A stretch of DNA of 64,000 nucleotides from Acidimicrobiales bacterium (GTDB lineage Bacteria > Actinomycetota > Acidimicrobiia > Acidimicrobiales > Bog-793). Positions 24,922 through 31,769 of this stretch are shown here, one piece after another (positions within the stretch are counted from its first letter, which is position 1; every line of letters starts with the position of its first letter). Where the stretch lies: positions 65,661 through 129,660 of the forward strand of contig DATLTN010000024.1 of assembly GCA_035533595.1 (NCBI GenBank), read 5' to 3'. The notes beneath the pieces are model-generated. The model did not search any database and was not told the origin of the DNA. It worked only from the letters and a program-made list of their open reading frames with translations. The position numbers and the translations under genes were made by a program.

Positions 24922-25374
24922 TCAGCGCGCCGCGAGCAGGGCGGCCGCGGCCTCGACGGCGAGGAGGTAGCCGAGGCCCCCGAAGCCGGCGATCGAGCCG
25001 TCGACCACCGGCGCCAGCACCGAATGGCGGCGCCAGGGCTCGCGGGCGTCGGGGTTGGAGAGGTGGAGCTCGACGACGGGCCCCTCGAAGGCGGCGAGGG
25101 CGTCGTGCAGCGACCAGCCGTAGTGGGTGAGCGCGCCGGCGTTGATGACGATCGCCGCCACCCGGCCGCGCGCGCCGTGCACCGCGTCGACGAGTGCCCC
25201 CTCTGACTCGGCCTGCAGGTGCTCGAAGGTGAGCCCCGCCGCGAGGGCGGTGGCCTCGGCGCTCGCCGCGTGCTCGGCGAGGGTGGTCTTGCCGTAGATG
25301 TGCGGCTGGCGCTCGCCGAGGAGCGCCAGGTTGGGCCCCGAGAGGAGGAGCAGGATCCCGCTGGTGCCGCTCAC
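24922..25374 (-). CDS. aroQ: 3-dehydroquinate dehydratase, type II
   Basis: 150 residues, dodecameric type II fold. Motifs: LLLSGPNLALLGERQPHIYG (active-site tyrosine region), EGALVDAVHGARG, VINAGALTHYGWSLHDAL, VELHLSNPDAREPWR and a final GFGGLGYLLAVEAA. The usual ..SHRS.. histidine-bearing segment reads RRHSVLAP, which keeps a nearby basic pair. It removes water from dehydroquinate in the shikimate pathway, next to its partner aroB. GTG start overlaps the aroB stop as GTGA. Confidence 0.93.
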   Translation of the reverse strand: MSGTSGILLLLSGPNLALLGERQPHIYGKTTLAEHAASAEATALAAGLTFEHLQAESEGALVDAVHGARGRVAAIVINAGALTHYGWSLHDALAAFEGPVVELHLSNPDAREPWRRHSVLAPVVDGSIAGFGGLGYLLAVEAAAALLAAR

Positions 25375-26900
25375 GCCGAGGCCTCGGCCAGGGTCGCGGC
25401 GACGGCCTCCGCGGGGACGTCGCGGACGACCTCCACCCCCTTGTCCCCGTCGAGGACGAAGGTGAGTCCGGCCGTTGCCTTTTTGTCCCGTCCCATGAGG
25501 ACGAGCAGCTCGTCGTGGTCGACGCCGTGCGGCAGCTCGTCGGAGAGGCCGTAGGCGTGCACCACCTCGAGGTGGCGGTCGACGCGGCGGTCGTCGATGC
25601 GGCCGAGGCGACGCGCGAGGCGCGCCGCGAAGACGAGGCCGATCGCGACCGCCTCGCCGTGGCGGAGGTCGATGCCGTCCCGGCCCGGGCCGTCGGCGAA
25701 GCCCGCCGCCTCGAGGGCGTGCGCAAGCGTGTGGCCGTAGTTGAGGAGCATGCGGCGGTCGCCCTCGCGCTCGTCGGCCGCGACGACCTCGGCCTTCAGC
25801 TCGACACAGGCCCGCACCTGCTCGGCGAGGGGCAGCTCGTCGAGGTCGTCGACGCCGAGGAAGGCGTACTTCGCCATCTCCCCCGAGCCCGAGCGCCGCT
25901 CCCGCTCGGGGAGGGTGTCGAGGGTGGCCGTGTCGCAGAGGACCGCGTGCGGCTGCCAGAAGGCGCCGACGAGGTTCTTCCCCTCGGGGAGGTTGACGCC
26001 CGTCTTGCCGCCGATCGCCGCGTCCACCTGGCCGAGAAGGGTGGTCGAGAGGTGCACCACCGCGACGCCGCGGTGGTAGCAGGAGGCGGCGAAGCCGGCG
26101 ACGTCGGTGACCACGCCGCCGCCGACGCCGACGACCACGTCGCTGCGGGTGAGGCCGAAGCGCGAGAAGCCGCGGCACAGCTCCTCGACCGTCGAAAGGG
26201 ACTTCGCCCCCTCCCCGTCGCCGATCTCGAAGCGCGCCGACTCGATGCCCGGCTCGGCGGCGACGGGGATCCCGCCCTGGGTGACGATCGCCGCCCGCCG
26301 CGCGCCGGCGGGGAGGTGGCGGGCGAGCCGGCGGCGGACGCCGGGTCCGATGACGACCTCGTAGGCGCGCTCCCCTAGGGGCACCTGCACGCTGCGGGCG
26401 AGTCCGTCGATGATCGCGCTGACGATCGCCGCGGGGCTCGCATGGTCGACGTCGACGGTGAGCGTGGCGATCGCCGCGTAGGCCGCACGGCGCGCGCCGT
26501 CGAGTGCGGGGAGGACCTCGGACGCCGGGCCCGGGAGCGGCCGGGGCGGGTCCTTCTCGACGCGCCCCACCAGCACCGCGACCTCGGCGCGCAGGTAGAC
26601 GACCTCTCCGGCCGACACGAGGCGCGCCGCGCTCGCGGGGTCCTCGATCACGCTCGCGGCCACCGCGATCACCGCCGGCGGCCCGGCGAGCTGGTCGCTC
26701 AAGACCTCGCGTTCGGCGCGGTGCAGCGCCGCGAGGCCCTCGTCGCGCAGGCGCTCGGGCGCGCTGCGCCCCGCGGCGGTGAGCGCCTCGTCGCTGTCGA
26801 GGAAGGGGCGGCCGATCGCCTCGGCGAGGGCGCGCCCGACCGTCGTCTTGCCGCTCCCCATCGTCCCGACGAGGAGGAGGTGCTCGCCGCGGGCGCTCAC
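25371..26900 (-). CDS. aroB: fused shikimate-kinase-like domain / 3-dehydroquinate synthase
   Basis: 509 residues. Residues 1-170 are a shikimate-kinase fold: P-loop GTMGSGKTT (12-20) and DSD (35-37) are intact, but the shikimate-binding GGG is AAS (81-83) and the FRxxE arginine segment reads ALHRAERE. From about residue 175 comes a complete dehydroquinate synthase: GVGGGVVTDVAGFAASCYHRG, QVDAAIGGKTGVNLPEGKN, GSGEMAKYAFLG, NYGHTLAHALE and RHGEAVAIGL. So dehydroquinate synthesis is certain, while kinase activity on shikimate is doubtful; an intact AroK is encoded at 30355. It lies between the Nfu gene and aroQ. Confidence 0.92.
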   Translation of the reverse strand: MSARGEHLLLVGTMGSGKTTVGRALAEAIGRPFLDSDEALTAAGRSAPERLRDEGLAALHRAEREVLSDQLAGPPAVIAVAASVIEDPASAARLVSAGEVVYLRAEVAVLVGRVEKDPPRPLPGPASEVLPALDGARRAAYAAIATLTVDVDHASPAAIVSAIIDGLARSVQVPLGERAYEVVIGPGVRRRLARHLPAGARRAAIVTQGGIPVAAEPGIESARFEIGDGEGAKSLSTVEELCRGFSRFGLTRSDVVVGVGGGVVTDVAGFAASCYHRGVAVVHLSTTLLGQVDAAIGGKTGVNLPEGKNLVGAFWQPHAVLCDTATLDTLPERERRSGSGEMAKYAFLGVDDLDELPLAEQVRACVELKAEVVAADEREGDRRMLLNYGHTLAHALEAAGFADGPGRDGIDLRHGEAVAIGLVFAARLARRLGRIDDRRVDRHLEVVHAYGLSDELPHGVDHDELLVLMGRDKKATAGLTFVLDGDKGVEVVRDVPAEAVAATLAEASA

Positions 26901-26940: not shown

Positions 26941-27585
26941 CTACTTCTTGGCGCTGGCGAAGTAGGGGTTCTCGCCCGACTCGTGCTGGGTGACGTCGAC
27001 GATCTCGACGATCTCGGGGACGGCCTCTTTGATCGCCACCGAGATCCCCTGGGTGAGGGTGACCTCCGCCATCCCGCAGCCCTGGCAGCCGCCGGAGAGG
27101 CGGAGGTAGGCGACGCCGTCGTCGACGGCGACGAGGTCGGCGCGGCCGCCGTGCGAGGCGATCTGCGGGTTGATCTCCTGCTCGAGCACCTCGAGCACGG
27201 CCAGCTCGAGCGGGCTCGAGAGGTCGCTCGTCGGCACCTCGAGGTGCTCGTGGTCGTGGTGCTGCGCCTCGGGCGGCGTGTTCGGGTTGAGCATCGCCAG
27301 CCCGCCGTCGTTCACGTCGAGGGTCGCGCCGCGCACCTGCGCAATGCTCGCCGCGGCGACCACCACCGTGAGGTCGTCGTGGGGGTGGACGGCGTCGCGC
27401 GGGCCAGCGTCGGTGGCCTTCTCGAACCACATGTCGTAGGTGTACGCGCCGTCTGCGGCACCGCTCACCTCGAGGAAGAGCGCGAGGTGCTCCGGCTCGG
27501 GCTCGCCGGCGCGCGCCTCGGAGATAAGGGCGCGGGCGGCATCGGTGACCTGCAGCACCGGCTCGATGACGTCGTCGGCAGCCAT
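26941..27585 (-). CDS. NfuA-like Fe-S cluster carrier
   Basis: 214 residues. The N-terminal half resembles a degenerate A-type (IscA/HesB) domain without its cysteines (AARALISEARAGEP, then DAVHPHDDLTVVV and ATLDVND). The C-terminal half is a Nfu domain, with VLEQEINPQIASHGGRADLVAVDDG, the cluster ligands in GGCQGCGMAE and TQGISVAIKEAVPEI. It likely carries a 4Fe-4S cluster to target enzymes; the radical SAM protein encoded nearby and divergently is one possible client, by inference. A 40-bp gap separates it from aroB. A TAGCAT box sits six bases before the ATG. Confidence 0.88.
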   Translation of the reverse strand: MAADDVIEPVLQVTDAARALISEARAGEPEPEHLALFLEVSGAADGAYTYDMWFEKATDAGPRDAVHPHDDLTVVVAAASIAQVRGATLDVNDGGLAMLNPNTPPEAQHHDHEHLEVPTSDLSSPLELAVLEVLEQEINPQIASHGGRADLVAVDDGVAYLRLSGGCQGCGMAEVTLTQGISVAIKEAVPEIVEIVDVTQHESGENPYFASAKK

Positions 27586-27659: not shown

Positions 27660-28922
27660 GTGGCCCGCGTCCTGCTCATCCTGCCGACGAGCACCTACCG
27701 GGCGCCCGAGTTCCTCGCCGCCGCGGCCCGCCTCGGGGTGGAGGTCGTCACCGCCAGCGAGGAGGCACAGGCGCTCGCCGCGATCATGGGTGACCACTTC
27801 CTCCGTCTGCCCGTCGACGACCCGCTCGCCGCCGCGGGGGTGATCGAGGACTTCGGTCGACGCGTCCCGCTCGACGCGGTGCTCGCCGTCGACGACCGCG
27901 GCGCGCTCGCCGGGGCGCTCGGCGCGGCGCGCCTCGGCCTTCGCCACAACCCCCTCGACGCGGTGCGCGCCACCACCGACAAGTCCCTCCTGCGCGCCAA
28001 GCTCGCCGCCGCCGGCGTCAACCAGCCCGCGTCGCTGCCGCTGCCGGGGGGAGCCGCACGCCCCGAGGCGCTCCGCCGCGCCGGACACGAGCTCGGCTAT
28101 CCGATGGTCCTGAAGCCCCTCTCGCTGGCGGCGAGCCGCGGCGTGATCCGTGCGGACGACGCCGGCGAGGCACAGGCGGCGGTCGCCCGCATCGAGCGGA
28201 TCCTCGAGGAGTGCGGCCTTTCCGGCGAGGCGCTGCTCGCCGAGGCCTACGTCCCGGGCCGCGAGGTGGCACTCGAGGGCCTGCTCGCCGGGGGTGCCCT
28301 CGAGACGCTCTGCCTCTTCGACAAGCCGGACCCCCTCGAGGGGCCCTTCTTCGAGGAGACCATCTACGTGACGCCCTCGCGCCTCGCCGCCGACGAGCAG
28401 GCGCGCGTCTCTGTTCTCGTGGCCGCCGGTTGCCGGGCGCTCGGCCTCACCGAGGGGCCCGTGCACGCCGAGGTCCGCCTCCCCGAGGTCGGGGGCGCCC
28501 TCTCCCCCACGCTCATCGAGGTCGCGGCGCGCACCATCGGCGGCCGCTGCGCGAAGGCGCTGCGCTTCGCGACCGGCGAGCGCCTCGAGGAGCTCGTGCT
28601 CGCGAACGCCCTCGGCGGGGGATGCCCCGCCGACCTCGCCGGGGCGGCGGGGGTGATGATGCTCCCGATCGCCTCCTCGGGGCGCCTCGTCGAGGTGCAC
28701 GGCCGGCGCGACGCGCTCCTCGTCGAGGGGATCGTCGGCCTCGAGATCGCGATCCCCCGCGGCGGGCGCGTCGTCGCCCTCCCCGAAGGAGACCGCTACC
28801 TCGGCTTCCTCTTCGCCGCCGGTGCCGACCCCGCGCACGTCGAGGCGTCGCTGCGCGCCGCGCACGCCCTCCTCGACGTCGAGATCGCCGCCGAGGAGGC
28901 CTTCGCGGCTCCGCGGCGATGA
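27660..28922 (+). CDS. ATP-grasp ligase of unknown substrate
   Basis: 420 residues. The arrangement is that of biotin-carboxylase/PurK-like ATP-grasp enzymes: a Rossmann-like N-terminus (VLLILPTSTYRAPEFLAAAARLG), an ATP-binding part with TDKSLLRAKLAAAGV and YPMVLKPLSLAASRGVIRADD, and catalytic metal-binding acids in PVHAEVRLP...LIEVAARTIGG, then a C-terminal region (RHGEAL-like FATGERLEELVLANALGG). Such enzymes join a carboxylate to an amine or thiol through an acyl phosphate. It is the first gene of a three-gene unit, overlapping the radical SAM gene by 4 bp, so both probably act on one molecule. A CATGAT box lies five bases before the GTG. The substrate is unknown. Confidence 0.85.
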   Translation: MARVLLILPTSTYRAPEFLAAAARLGVEVVTASEEAQALAAIMGDHFLRLPVDDPLAAAGVIEDFGRRVPLDAVLAVDDRGALAGALGAARLGLRHNPLDAVRATTDKSLLRAKLAAAGVNQPASLPLPGGAARPEALRRAGHELGYPMVLKPLSLAASRGVIRADDAGEAQAAVARIERILEECGLSGEALLAEAYVPGREVALEGLLAGGALETLCLFDKPDPLEGPFFEETIYVTPSRLAADEQARVSVLVAAGCRALGLTEGPVHAEVRLPEVGGALSPTLIEVAARTIGGRCAKALRFATGERLEELVLANALGGGCPADLAGAAGVMMLPIASSGRLVEVHGRRDALLVEGIVGLEIAIPRGGRVVALPEGDRYLGFLFAAGADPAHVEASLRAAHALLDVEIAAEEAFAAPRR

Positions 28923-30358
28923 CCACCGCCCTCGTCGTCTCGACCTACGAGCTCGGCGCCCGCCCTCTCGGGATCACCACCGTCGCCGGCGCGCTGCGCG
29001 CCGCCGGCCACACCGTGCTCACCTGCGACCTCTCCGTCGAGGAGTGGCCCGAGGAGGCGCTCGCCCGGGCCGACTGCCTCTGCTGCTCGGTGCCGATGCA
29101 CACCGCGCTCCGCCTCGGCGCGGAGGCGGCGCGCCGCGCCCGCGCCGAGCGCCCGGCGCTGCCCGTCTACTTCTTCGGCCTCTACGCGAAGGTCGCCGAG
29201 GCGGCCGGCCTCCTCGAGCCAGGTGACGCGGCGGTCGAGGCCGACGAGGCGGCCGCGCTCGTCGGGCTGTGCGACGCGCTCGCCGGCGCGACCGTGCGCG
29301 CGCCGGCACCGCCCGCCCCGGCCGACCACCGCGGCCTCCCGCCACTCGCGCGCTACGCCCGCTTCGTGACCGGCGACGAGGAGCGCCTCGTCGCAACGGT
29401 GGCGTCGACGACGGGCTGCAACCACCACTGCCGTCACTGCCCCGTGCCCCTCGTCCACCGCGGCCGCTCGCAGCCGCTCGCGCTCGCGCCGCTCGTCGAG
29501 GAGGTCGGCCTGCTCGTCGACGAGGGCGCCCGCCACGTCCACTTCGCCGACCCCGACTTCCTCAACCGCCCCCGCCACGCGGCCCGCGTGGTCGGCGCGA
29601 TCCACGCCGAGCACCCCGCGCTGACCTTCGACGCGACGGTGAAGGTCTCGCACATCCTGCGCTTCGGGGGACTGCTCGGCGAGCTGGCGGCGGCGGGGCT
29701 CGTCACCGTCACCTCCGCCTTCGAGTCGACGAGCGACCGCGTCCTCGAGCGCCTCGACAAGGGCCACTGCGCCGCCGACCTGCACCGCTGTGTGGAGCTC
29801 CTCCGGCAAGTCGGCATCGAGCCGCGGCCCTCGCTCTTGCCCTTCACGCCCTGGACGGAGCGGCGTGACCTCACCGAGCTGCTCGACTTCGTGGCGAGCC
29901 ACGACCTCGTCGACAACGTCGATCCGGTGCAGTACTCGATCCGCCTGCTCCTTCCGCCGGGCTCGCTTTTGCTCGGCCGCGACGACGCGACCCTCGATGC
30001 CGCGCTCGAGGGGGCGGCGCCGGGGGCGATCGGGATCGCCTGGCACGCGGCGGACCCCCTCCTCGACGAGCTCGCCGGGGCGATCGCGGCGCGCGTCGAG
30101 CTCGCCGCCACCGCAGGCGAGGCACAGGCCGCGACCTACGGCGCCGTCCGCGCCCTCGTCTACGGCGCCCTCTCCGAGGAGGACCCCGGCCTCCCGCCGC
30201 TCGAGGTCCCCGCCGGCCCCCCCGTCGAGCGCCGCGGCCGCCTCGACGAGTCCTGGTTCTGCTGCGCCGAGCCGACGCTCGAGCAGCTCTCCCGGCTGCA
30301 CGCCGCCGAGCCGATCTTCCTCGGCCTCGGGATCCCGACCGGCCACCCCGCGGGGTGA
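28919..30358 (+). CDS. CCAEP-tail radical SAM protein
   Basis: 479 residues. The N-terminal ~150 residues look like a Rossmann B12-binding-type fold (TTVAGALRAAGHTVLTCDLS) but lack the DxHxxG cobalamin ligand. The radical SAM cluster motif is CNHHCRHC (Cys167, Cys171, Cys174), followed by VHFADPDFLNRPRHA and a TIM-barrel core ending LLPFTPW. The tail carries SWFCCAEP (Cys448, Cys449), the mark of a family annotated as CUAEP/CCAEP-tail radical SAM (seleno)protein, in which some members have selenocysteine; here both are TGC cysteine codons. I recall the family as uncharacterised. ATGA and TGATG overlaps tie it to the ATP-grasp ligase and to aroK. Confidence 0.85.
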   Translation: MTTALVVSTYELGARPLGITTVAGALRAAGHTVLTCDLSVEEWPEEALARADCLCCSVPMHTALRLGAEAARRARAERPALPVYFFGLYAKVAEAAGLLEPGDAAVEADEAAALVGLCDALAGATVRAPAPPAPADHRGLPPLARYARFVTGDEERLVATVASTTGCNHHCRHCPVPLVHRGRSQPLALAPLVEEVGLLVDEGARHVHFADPDFLNRPRHAARVVGAIHAEHPALTFDATVKVSHILRFGGLLGELAAAGLVTVTSAFESTSDRVLERLDKGHCAADLHRCVELLRQVGIEPRPSLLPFTPWTERRDLTELLDFVASHDLVDNVDPVQYSIRLLLPPGSLLLGRDDATLDAALEGAAPGAIGIAWHAADPLLDELAGAIAARVELAATAGEAQAATYGAVRALVYGALSEEDPGLPPLEVPAGPPVERRGRLDESWFCCAEPTLEQLSRLHAAEPIFLGLGIPTGHPAG

Positions 30359-30915
30359 TGGGCGCCCTCCGCGGGGACCTGCCGGTCGCGCTCTGCGGCT
30401 TCATGGGCGTCGGCAAGACCTCGATCGGCCGGCGGGTCGCCGCCGCGCTCGGGCGCGCCTTCGTCGACTCCGACGCGCTGATCGTCGCCGAGATCGGGAT
30501 GAGCATCGCCGACTTCTTCGCAGCCGAGGGCGAGGCGCGCTTCCGCCAGATCGAGGCGGAGACGATCGCGAGCGCGCTCGGTCGGCGGCCTCCGGTCGTG
30601 CTCGCCCTCGGCGGTGGGGCGCTCGGCGACGAGGGGACGCGGGCGCTCCTCCTCGAGGAGGCCCTCCTCGTCCACCTCGACCAGCCCTTCTCCGAGCTGC
30701 GGTCGGCGCTGCCGGCGCTGCGCCGTGGCCGTCCGCTCCTCGCCGAGGCGACCGAGGAGGAGGTGCGGGCGCTGTTCGAGGCCCGCCGCAGCCTCTACGC
30801 GGTGGCACCGGTGCAGGTGACGCTCCGGCGGCGGGGGGTGGTGGTGGCGGCCGAGCAGGTCCTCGCCGCGATCGGCGCCACGAGGCCCACCCCGACGGAC
30901 CCTGCGCCCCGCTGA
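30355..30915 (+). CDS. aroK: shikimate kinase, stand-alone and intact
   Basis: 186 residues. All kinase landmarks are present: P-loop GFMGVGKTS, the DSD shikimate contact, EARFRQIEAE with the arginine-glutamate pair, the LALGGGAL glycine triplet (86-88), the lid RGRPLLA and the terminal RRSLYAVAPVQV. It phosphorylates shikimate at O3 with ATP. GTG 30355 (GTGA overlap) or ATG 30358 can start it; either way it is coupled to the radical SAM gene. Its presence beside that operon and apart from aroB-aroQ suggests either replacement of the degenerate fused kinase or a link between the operon and aromatic precursors. Confidence 0.93.
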   Translation: MMGALRGDLPVALCGFMGVGKTSIGRRVAAALGRAFVDSDALIVAEIGMSIADFFAAEGEARFRQIEAETIASALGRRPPVVLALGGGALGDEGTRALLLEEALLVHLDQPFSELRSALPALRRGRPLLAEATEEEVRALFEARRSLYAVAPVQVTLRRRGVVVAAEQVLAAIGATRPTPTDPAPR

Positions 30916-31007: not shown

Positions 31008-31769
31008 GTGGCGTCCACCCCGCGTCCGTCCGGGGACCCCGACGCGCACGAGTGGGTCTCCTTCGAGGATCCCGACGAGGAGCGCACCTGGCTCCTCGAC
31101 GTCACCTTCCTCGCCTCCAACTGGCGCTGCCTGTACGGCTGCGGCTGCCAGGGGGTGCTCTCCGAGCGGGCTCCCGAGCGCGCCGAGGGCTGCTGCAGCT
31201 ACGGCGCGCACTTCTCGGGGCCGGAGGACATCGCCCGCGTCGAGGCAGCCGCCGCCGAGCTCGACGAGACGGAGTGGCAGTTCGCGGCGCGCGGCCGCGC
31301 CCAGGGAGTCGTCGCCCGGCGCGGCGCGCACGGCACGACGCGCCTCGTCGACGGCTCCTGCATCTTCTTGAACCGCCCCGGCTTCCCGGCCGGCCCCGGC
31401 TGTGCCCTCCACCAGGCGGCGCTCAAGCGGCGCCGCTCACCAATGCGGCTGAAGCCCGACGTCTGCTGGCAGCTGCCGCTGCGCCGCGAGGACCTCGAGA
31501 CGACCGGCGGCCACATCACCTCGGTGGTCGCCGGCTGGGACCGCCGCCACTGGGGCGAGGCGGGACAGGACTTCGCGTGGTGGTGCACCGACGCACCCGA
31601 GGCCTTCAGCGGCGCGCGCCCGGTCTACCTCGAGATGCGCGAGGAACTCACCGAGCTCGTCGGCGCCGCCGTCTACCGGCGCCTCGTCGCGCACCTCGCG
31701 TCGCGGCCGAAGGGCGCGGCGCTCGCGCACCCGACGGTGCGCCGCGCGACGCGCGCCCGCGAGCGCTGA
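31008..31769 (+). CDS. conserved Cys-rich protein, possible metal or Fe-S binding
   Basis: 253 residues, function unknown. The first half contains a dense cysteine group (NWRCLYGCGCQGV, then GCCSYGAHF), then GSCIFLNRPGF, GPGCALHQAAL and DVCWQLPLRRED. The order of a CxxxCxC group, a CC pair and a later G.GCALH.A segment resembles YkgJ/DUF3109-type metal-binding proteins, which have a similar "C..., CC..., C.IF, C..H" layout; this comparison is by eye. The C-terminal part is Trp/His-rich (GWDRRHWGEAGQDFAWWCTDAPEAF) and the end is Arg-rich. No signal peptide. It is probably monocistronic with a leaderless promoter. Confidence 0.7.
   Translation: MASTPRPSGDPDAHEWVSFEDPDEERTWLLDVTFLASNWRCLYGCGCQGVLSERAPERAEGCCSYGAHFSGPEDIARVEAAAAELDETEWQFAARGRAQGVVARRGAHGTTRLVDGSCIFLNRPGFPAGPGCALHQAALKRRRSPMRLKPDVCWQLPLRREDLETTGGHITSVVAGWDRRHWGEAGQDFAWWCTDAPEAFSGARPVYLEMREELTELVGAAVYRRLVAHLASRPKGAALAHPTVRRATRARER

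Follow-up and report, generated by a model that had tools for sequence, protein, structure and literature searches.

The 64,000-nucleotide window from an Acidimicrobiales bacterium contains a three-part unit that we identify with high confidence as a tailed Nfu iron-sulfur (Fe-S) carrier, an ATP-grasp amide ligase, and an ArsL-type radical SAM (rSAM) protein whose relatives include selenoproteins. An earlier note on this DNA had grouped three overlapping genes (27660-30915) into one unit. All three were confirmed: the first encodes an ATP-grasp ligase, the second a CCAEP-tail rSAM protein, and the third an intact shikimate kinase. The pairing of the first two stood (51/51 genomes), but the kinase, aroK, was judged to be a replacement enzyme and not a member. 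The actual third partner, nfuA (26941-27585), and the kinship to ArsL were absent from that note. The features discussed below are as follows.

25371-26900, minus strand: AroK-AroB fusion with a degenerate kinase domain (Arg-58 position changed to His, GGG to VAA)
26941-27585, minus strand: NfuA-like Fe-S carrier, divergent neighbor of the ligase (PF01106; recurrent neighbor)
26944-26958, minus strand: Lys-ending C-terminal residues ASAKK of the NfuA-like carrier, a module-specific extension (sequence; tail comparison)
27660-28922, plus strand: ATP-grasp amide/peptide ligase of the L-amino-acid ligase type, ATP-grasp_4 plus LAL_C2 (GTG start; Pfam PF13535 and PF18603; alignment A2)
28919-30358, plus strand: CCAEP-tail rSAM protein with a B12-binding-like N-terminal domain (NF040546, 2e-125; AF2 model)
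29417-29440, plus strand: CNHHCRHC, the CxxxCxxC site of the [4Fe-4S]/SAM cluster (sequence; Cys invariant in alignments A1 and A4)
30260-30265, plus strand: codons for the vicinal Cys pair of the CCAEP tail, which is Cys-Sec in many relatives (sequence; Sec/Cys pattern; aligns with CC in the RCCLKC tail of ArsL)
30355 (GTG) or 30358 (ATG) to 30915, plus strand: standalone shikimate kinase aroK, judged outside the system (PF01202, 1e-34; active-site residues intact)

Partnership of the ligase and the radical SAM protein

The ligase and rSAM genes overlap by ATGA, and the rSAM and aroK genes by GTGATG. The ligase has the ATP-grasp and LAL_C2 domains of the L-amino acid ligases, and its nearest solved structure is the L-amino acid ligase BL00235 (3vot; 2e-68 with profile A2). 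Strong matches to it were found in all 51 rSAM-positive genomes of the order sample (198 genomes) versus 5 of the 147 rSAM-negative ones (Fisher p 5e-42), and in the phylum sample in 21 of 22 rSAM genomes (Fisher p 9e-26); both p values are indicative only, as relatedness makes the genomes non-independent. In two of the five rSAM-negative genomes (G147 and G160), an rSAM gene runs off the contig end, and the single exception in the phylum sample (G218) has its rSAM gene at a contig end. A ligase match lies within the retrieved stretch in 39 of 49 order loci (window counted), and wherever an rSAM gene sits on a long contig with no ligase adjacent, the ligase is elsewhere in the genome (16/16). 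The two are obligate partners. A neighborhood check of the CCAEP family proposed in the earlier note asked after two companions: the ATP-grasp partner recurs across genomes, and aroK shows no recurrence beside the module in other groups.

The 80 named loci, nearly all from metagenome bins, belong to Actinomycetota, Chloroflexota, Nitrospirota, Acidobacteriota, Elusimicrobiota, and Ignavibacteriota. On an Ignavibacteriales contig the gene order is sufS, sufU, sufT, rSAM, nfu, dehydrogenase, ligase, and a SUF operon context is also seen in G160; in Chloroflexota, lipB, lipA, and pyruvate dehydrogenase genes come after the rSAM gene. DUF169 (PF02596) genes are frequent module neighbors in several phyla (L094, L112, L141, L154, L159, and L240). 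Downstream of the module in the window, a gene at 31008-31769 (plus strand) encodes a Cys-rich 253-amino-acid protein with no Pfam or NCBIfam match; in 17 of the 49 order loci, homologs (motifs CCSYGAH, IFLNRPGF, and KPDVCWQLPLR) follow the module.

Kinship and tail of the radical SAM protein

CNHHCRHC occupies residues 167-174 of the rSAM protein and SWFCCAEP residues 445-452 of 479, both as first read from the sequence; together they provide the CxxxCxxC site and W-F-C-[CU]-A-E-P tail of family NF040546. The match to that family is 2e-125 and 419 bits, below its naming cut-off of 500 bits, which 30 of the 198 order genomes exceed. The next family, ArsL (NF040542, cut-off 450), gives 211 bits, and the tail is CCAEP instead of RCCLKC. 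In the tree the protein falls inside NF040546, with SH-aLRT 100 for the split from four RCCLKC proteins. From scores and tree, it is best classed as a close relative inside the NF040546 clade and not as a cut-off-passing member. The family match, the recurrent ligase, and a CCAEP tail that is almost invariant across the rSAM alignments argue that the find is not due to chance.

Profile comparison places the family as the sister of ArsL, the rSAM protein of arsinothricin synthesis. An Alicyclobacillus RCCLKC (ArsL) protein scored 364 bits against the CUAEP model, with the next family at only 78, and the CUAEP and RCCLKC families align through the core, with a vicinal Cys-Cys near the C-terminal end common to both. 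ArsL reportedly makes hydroxyarsinothricin from arsenite, and transfer of a 3-amino-3-carboxypropyl group from SAM has been proposed (PMC8552651). Arsenic genes do not recur among the neighbors of the named loci; thus, ArsL's acceptor was not simply carried over. An ATP-grasp gene is close to the RCCLKC rSAM gene in six of seven clusters read (L253-L255 and L340-L342; Alicyclobacillus, Priestia, Pantoea, and Klebsiella plasmid clusters), which suggests that these ars clusters may yield a ligated arsinothricin-type product. A direct sister relationship between the ars-cluster ATP-grasp proteins and the window ligase is not supported (approximately 25% identity, not nearest by profile).

Selenocysteine in the tail of some family members, mentioned in the earlier note, is well supported by sequence: of the 49 order loci, 9 have an in-frame TGA precisely at the CUAEP position, as do 15 of the 80 named loci, and AEPTxxQ follows it in frame. 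At least four changes between Cys and Sec at the second tail position are forced on the rSAM tree, as would suit a pair that binds a metal(loid) or is redox-active. By the curated cut-off, SelB is present in eight of the nine Sec-form order genomes and absent from the window genome, consistent with the Cys tail of the latter. Looser SelB matches were mostly other elongation factors and were therefore discarded as a marker, being uninformative by themselves. In Thermomicrobium roseum (L251, 8932-10380), the annotated CUAEP rSAM protein ends at WFC and the DNA continues TGA GCG GAG CCG; this record appears to be truncated at a selenocysteine codon.

The AF2 model of the rSAM protein (pLDDT 93.2) has AprD4 and MgmA as its nearest folds. 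A cobalamin histidine had been reported missing from the N-terminal domain, and indeed no DxHxxG motif is found there, yet the motif is absent family-wide. This absence would be compatible with cobalamin binding in the family; the B12-binding domain match is below the gathering score, and the fold resembles AprD4 as well as two cobalamin enzymes, MgmA and OxsB.

An Nfu extension gained and lost with the module

The Nfu protein is the only NifU-domain protein found in the genome (PF01106, 74 bits, with CxxC) and scores 94.7 bits on NfuA TIGR03341, whose cut-off is 269. Clustering of neighbors placed an Nfu-type carrier near the module in 47 of the 80 named loci, including phyla without shared synteny. 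Of the 17 loci in which ligase and rSAM genes lie apart, 14 have Nfu adjoining the ligase; for the remaining three, Nfu is beside the rSAM gene of the genome concerned. Nfu was rejected as a module-exclusive gene (165 of 198 genomes have one), and it is the tailed form alone that tracks the module.

The tailed form carries a short C-terminal extension with Lys or Arg within the last two positions, mostly NP[YF][YF]xx[AS]KK; the window protein ends NPYFASAKK. All 126 complete Nfu frames of module loci (some genomes being represented twice) have this extension, as against none of 29 frames from module-less genomes of the order. In an Nfu tree built without the tail, the trait requires six parsimony changes, of which at least two are forced by well-supported branches; for example, the module-less, tail-less G157 stands beside G097, which has both module and tail. 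For two seeming exceptions, family f40 and G052, a further Nfu that is tailed and ends in KR lies close to the ligase. A tailed Nfu was looked for and not found in G160 (ligase and partial rSAM), which stands as an exception to the rule, and near the ligase in G178. Within the phylum sample, only ligase-positive genomes gave matches that extend to the end of the tailed Nfu model, bar a short fragment in G288. The tail persists while the Nfu type differs, with the Nfu_N type in Ignavibacteriales and the A-type in L219.

Because the tail follows the module across Nfu types, it most likely serves the ligase or the rSAM protein, either as a docking peptide or as a substrate. The residue pairs seen (KK, KR, SK, QK, GK, and KQ) leave no single residue strictly conserved, and docking is favored for this reason. 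The tail offers a sequence-level handle that predicts a physical interaction.

Proposed working and known systems

We propose that the rSAM protein cleaves SAM in the manner suggested for ArsL and passes the 3-amino-3-carboxypropyl group on to a thiophilic acceptor atom (S, Se, As, or the like), which the vicinal Cys-Cys or Cys-Sec pair of the tail would hold. The ATP-grasp enzyme would then couple the amino acid so formed with another amino acid or an amine, and Nfu, docked via its basic tail, may supply or repair the Fe-S cluster or hand over the acceptor. This chain of transfer, amide ligation, and docking with Fe-S handover is tentative as a whole, although it is the likeliest of the readings considered here. 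Should the reaction prove ArsL-like, the formation of carbon-heteroatom bonds from SAM would reach far beyond arsinothricin.

It is conceivable, if somewhat unlikely, that ligase and rSAM protein form a small-molecule pathway in which the part of Nfu is limited to repairing the cluster of the rSAM protein, as NfuA repairs that of lipoyl synthase, and that the neighborhood reflects shared regulation with a tail that has no role in the pathway. The SUF operon contexts in Ignavibacteriales and G160 and the lipB-lipA context in Chloroflexota point in that direction; the tail rule is left unexplained, and the closer link of Nfu to the ligase than to the rSAM protein is not what a pure repair role predicts.

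Alternatively, the Nfu tail could itself be the substrate, with the ATP-grasp enzyme ligating an amino acid to a Lys side chain or the chain end and the rSAM protein modifying the attached group or using Nfu as a carrier. RimK and LysX ligate onto their own protein partners, the tail appears and vanishes with the module, and Nfu remains with the ligase where the rSAM gene is elsewhere. However, a tail without a strictly conserved residue is more like a docking peptide, and the nearest solved structure of the ligase is a free-amino-acid ligase; we consider this reading rather unlikely. That the Fe-S carrier is a protein substrate or scaffold for both ligase and rSAM protein, its basic tail being modified or serving as an assembly site, we likewise judge unlikely.

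A low-molecular-weight thiol replacing mycothiol is a very doubtful product. A homocysteine-like compound can be imagined, and the ligase is similar to an L-amino acid dipeptide ligase, but MshC-like genes, all below the curated cut-off, are present equally in genomes with and without the module and so show no pattern of replacement.

The main idea of the earlier note, that ligase, rSAM protein, and aroK form a product pathway from aromatic precursors, draws on the overlap of the genes in the window and is highly improbable, as aroK takes the place of a degenerate kinase domain and is not a recurrent companion of the module outside this group. Only two shikimate kinase domains are present in the genome, the standalone aroK and that of the AroK-AroB fusion, in which the FR-motif Arg is replaced by His and GGG by VAA; the standalone copy keeps both original motifs. 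The AroB part of the fusion (25371-26900) matches its own family over most of its length. The relatives G033 and G083 have the standalone form only. Only in the window and two sister genomes is the module followed, on its own strand, by a standalone aroK of this type, which argues against the suggested tie to aromatic precursors; the nearby aroC/aroKB genes are part of a housekeeping neighborhood that does not accompany the module into other phyla. Since the fused kinase has lost shikimate-binding residues and the standalone copy is intact, aroK is read as a housekeeping replacement and a bystander to the system, in line with the note's other suggestion of a substitute for a broken kinase.

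Our literature search found no mention of CUAEP or CCAEP and nothing joining arsinothricin or NfuA with ATP-grasp; a 2026 selenoproteome review names neither ArsL nor ATP-grasp. The rSAM family and the ligase and Nfu folds were already known; the three-part union and the Nfu tail rule were not found in the literature searched. With a system in at least six phyla, a previously unassigned (seleno)protein family becomes testable, and cultured hosts exist in Aciditerrimonas ferrireducens (L157, full module) and Thermomicrobium roseum (Sec-coding rSAM).

Among known systems, the NF040546 CUAEP/CCAEP-tail (seleno)proteins match the window rSAM protein over the full length and share its CCAEP tail; the family name assigns no function. 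ArsL (NF040542) is the sister by a wide margin, sharing core motifs, the C-terminal Cys-Cys, and in many clusters an ATP-grasp gene, but has RCCLKC at the very end and an ars gene context, with no Nfu or Sec seen. AprD4 (6fd2) is the best overall fold match (Z 24.9), with a B12-like N-terminal domain in both; it is a diol dehydratase with 17% identity, and the CC tail region is outside the aligned range. BL00235 and BacD, the nearest solved structures to the ligase, share ATP-grasp_4 and LAL_C2, and the window ligase differs in its obligate pairing with rSAM and Nfu. The LysW/LysX system likewise pairs an ATP-grasp enzyme with a small Cys-motif carrier that has a conserved C-terminal tail; the LysW tail is strictly conserved and ends in Glu, whereas the Nfu tail is basic and variable, and ligation to it is hypothetical. 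NfuA-type Fe-S carriers share the NifU domain with CxxC, and relatives have an A-type-like or Nfu_N N-terminal domain; the window-type Nfu is set apart by its Lys/Arg-ending C-terminal extension, found only with the module.
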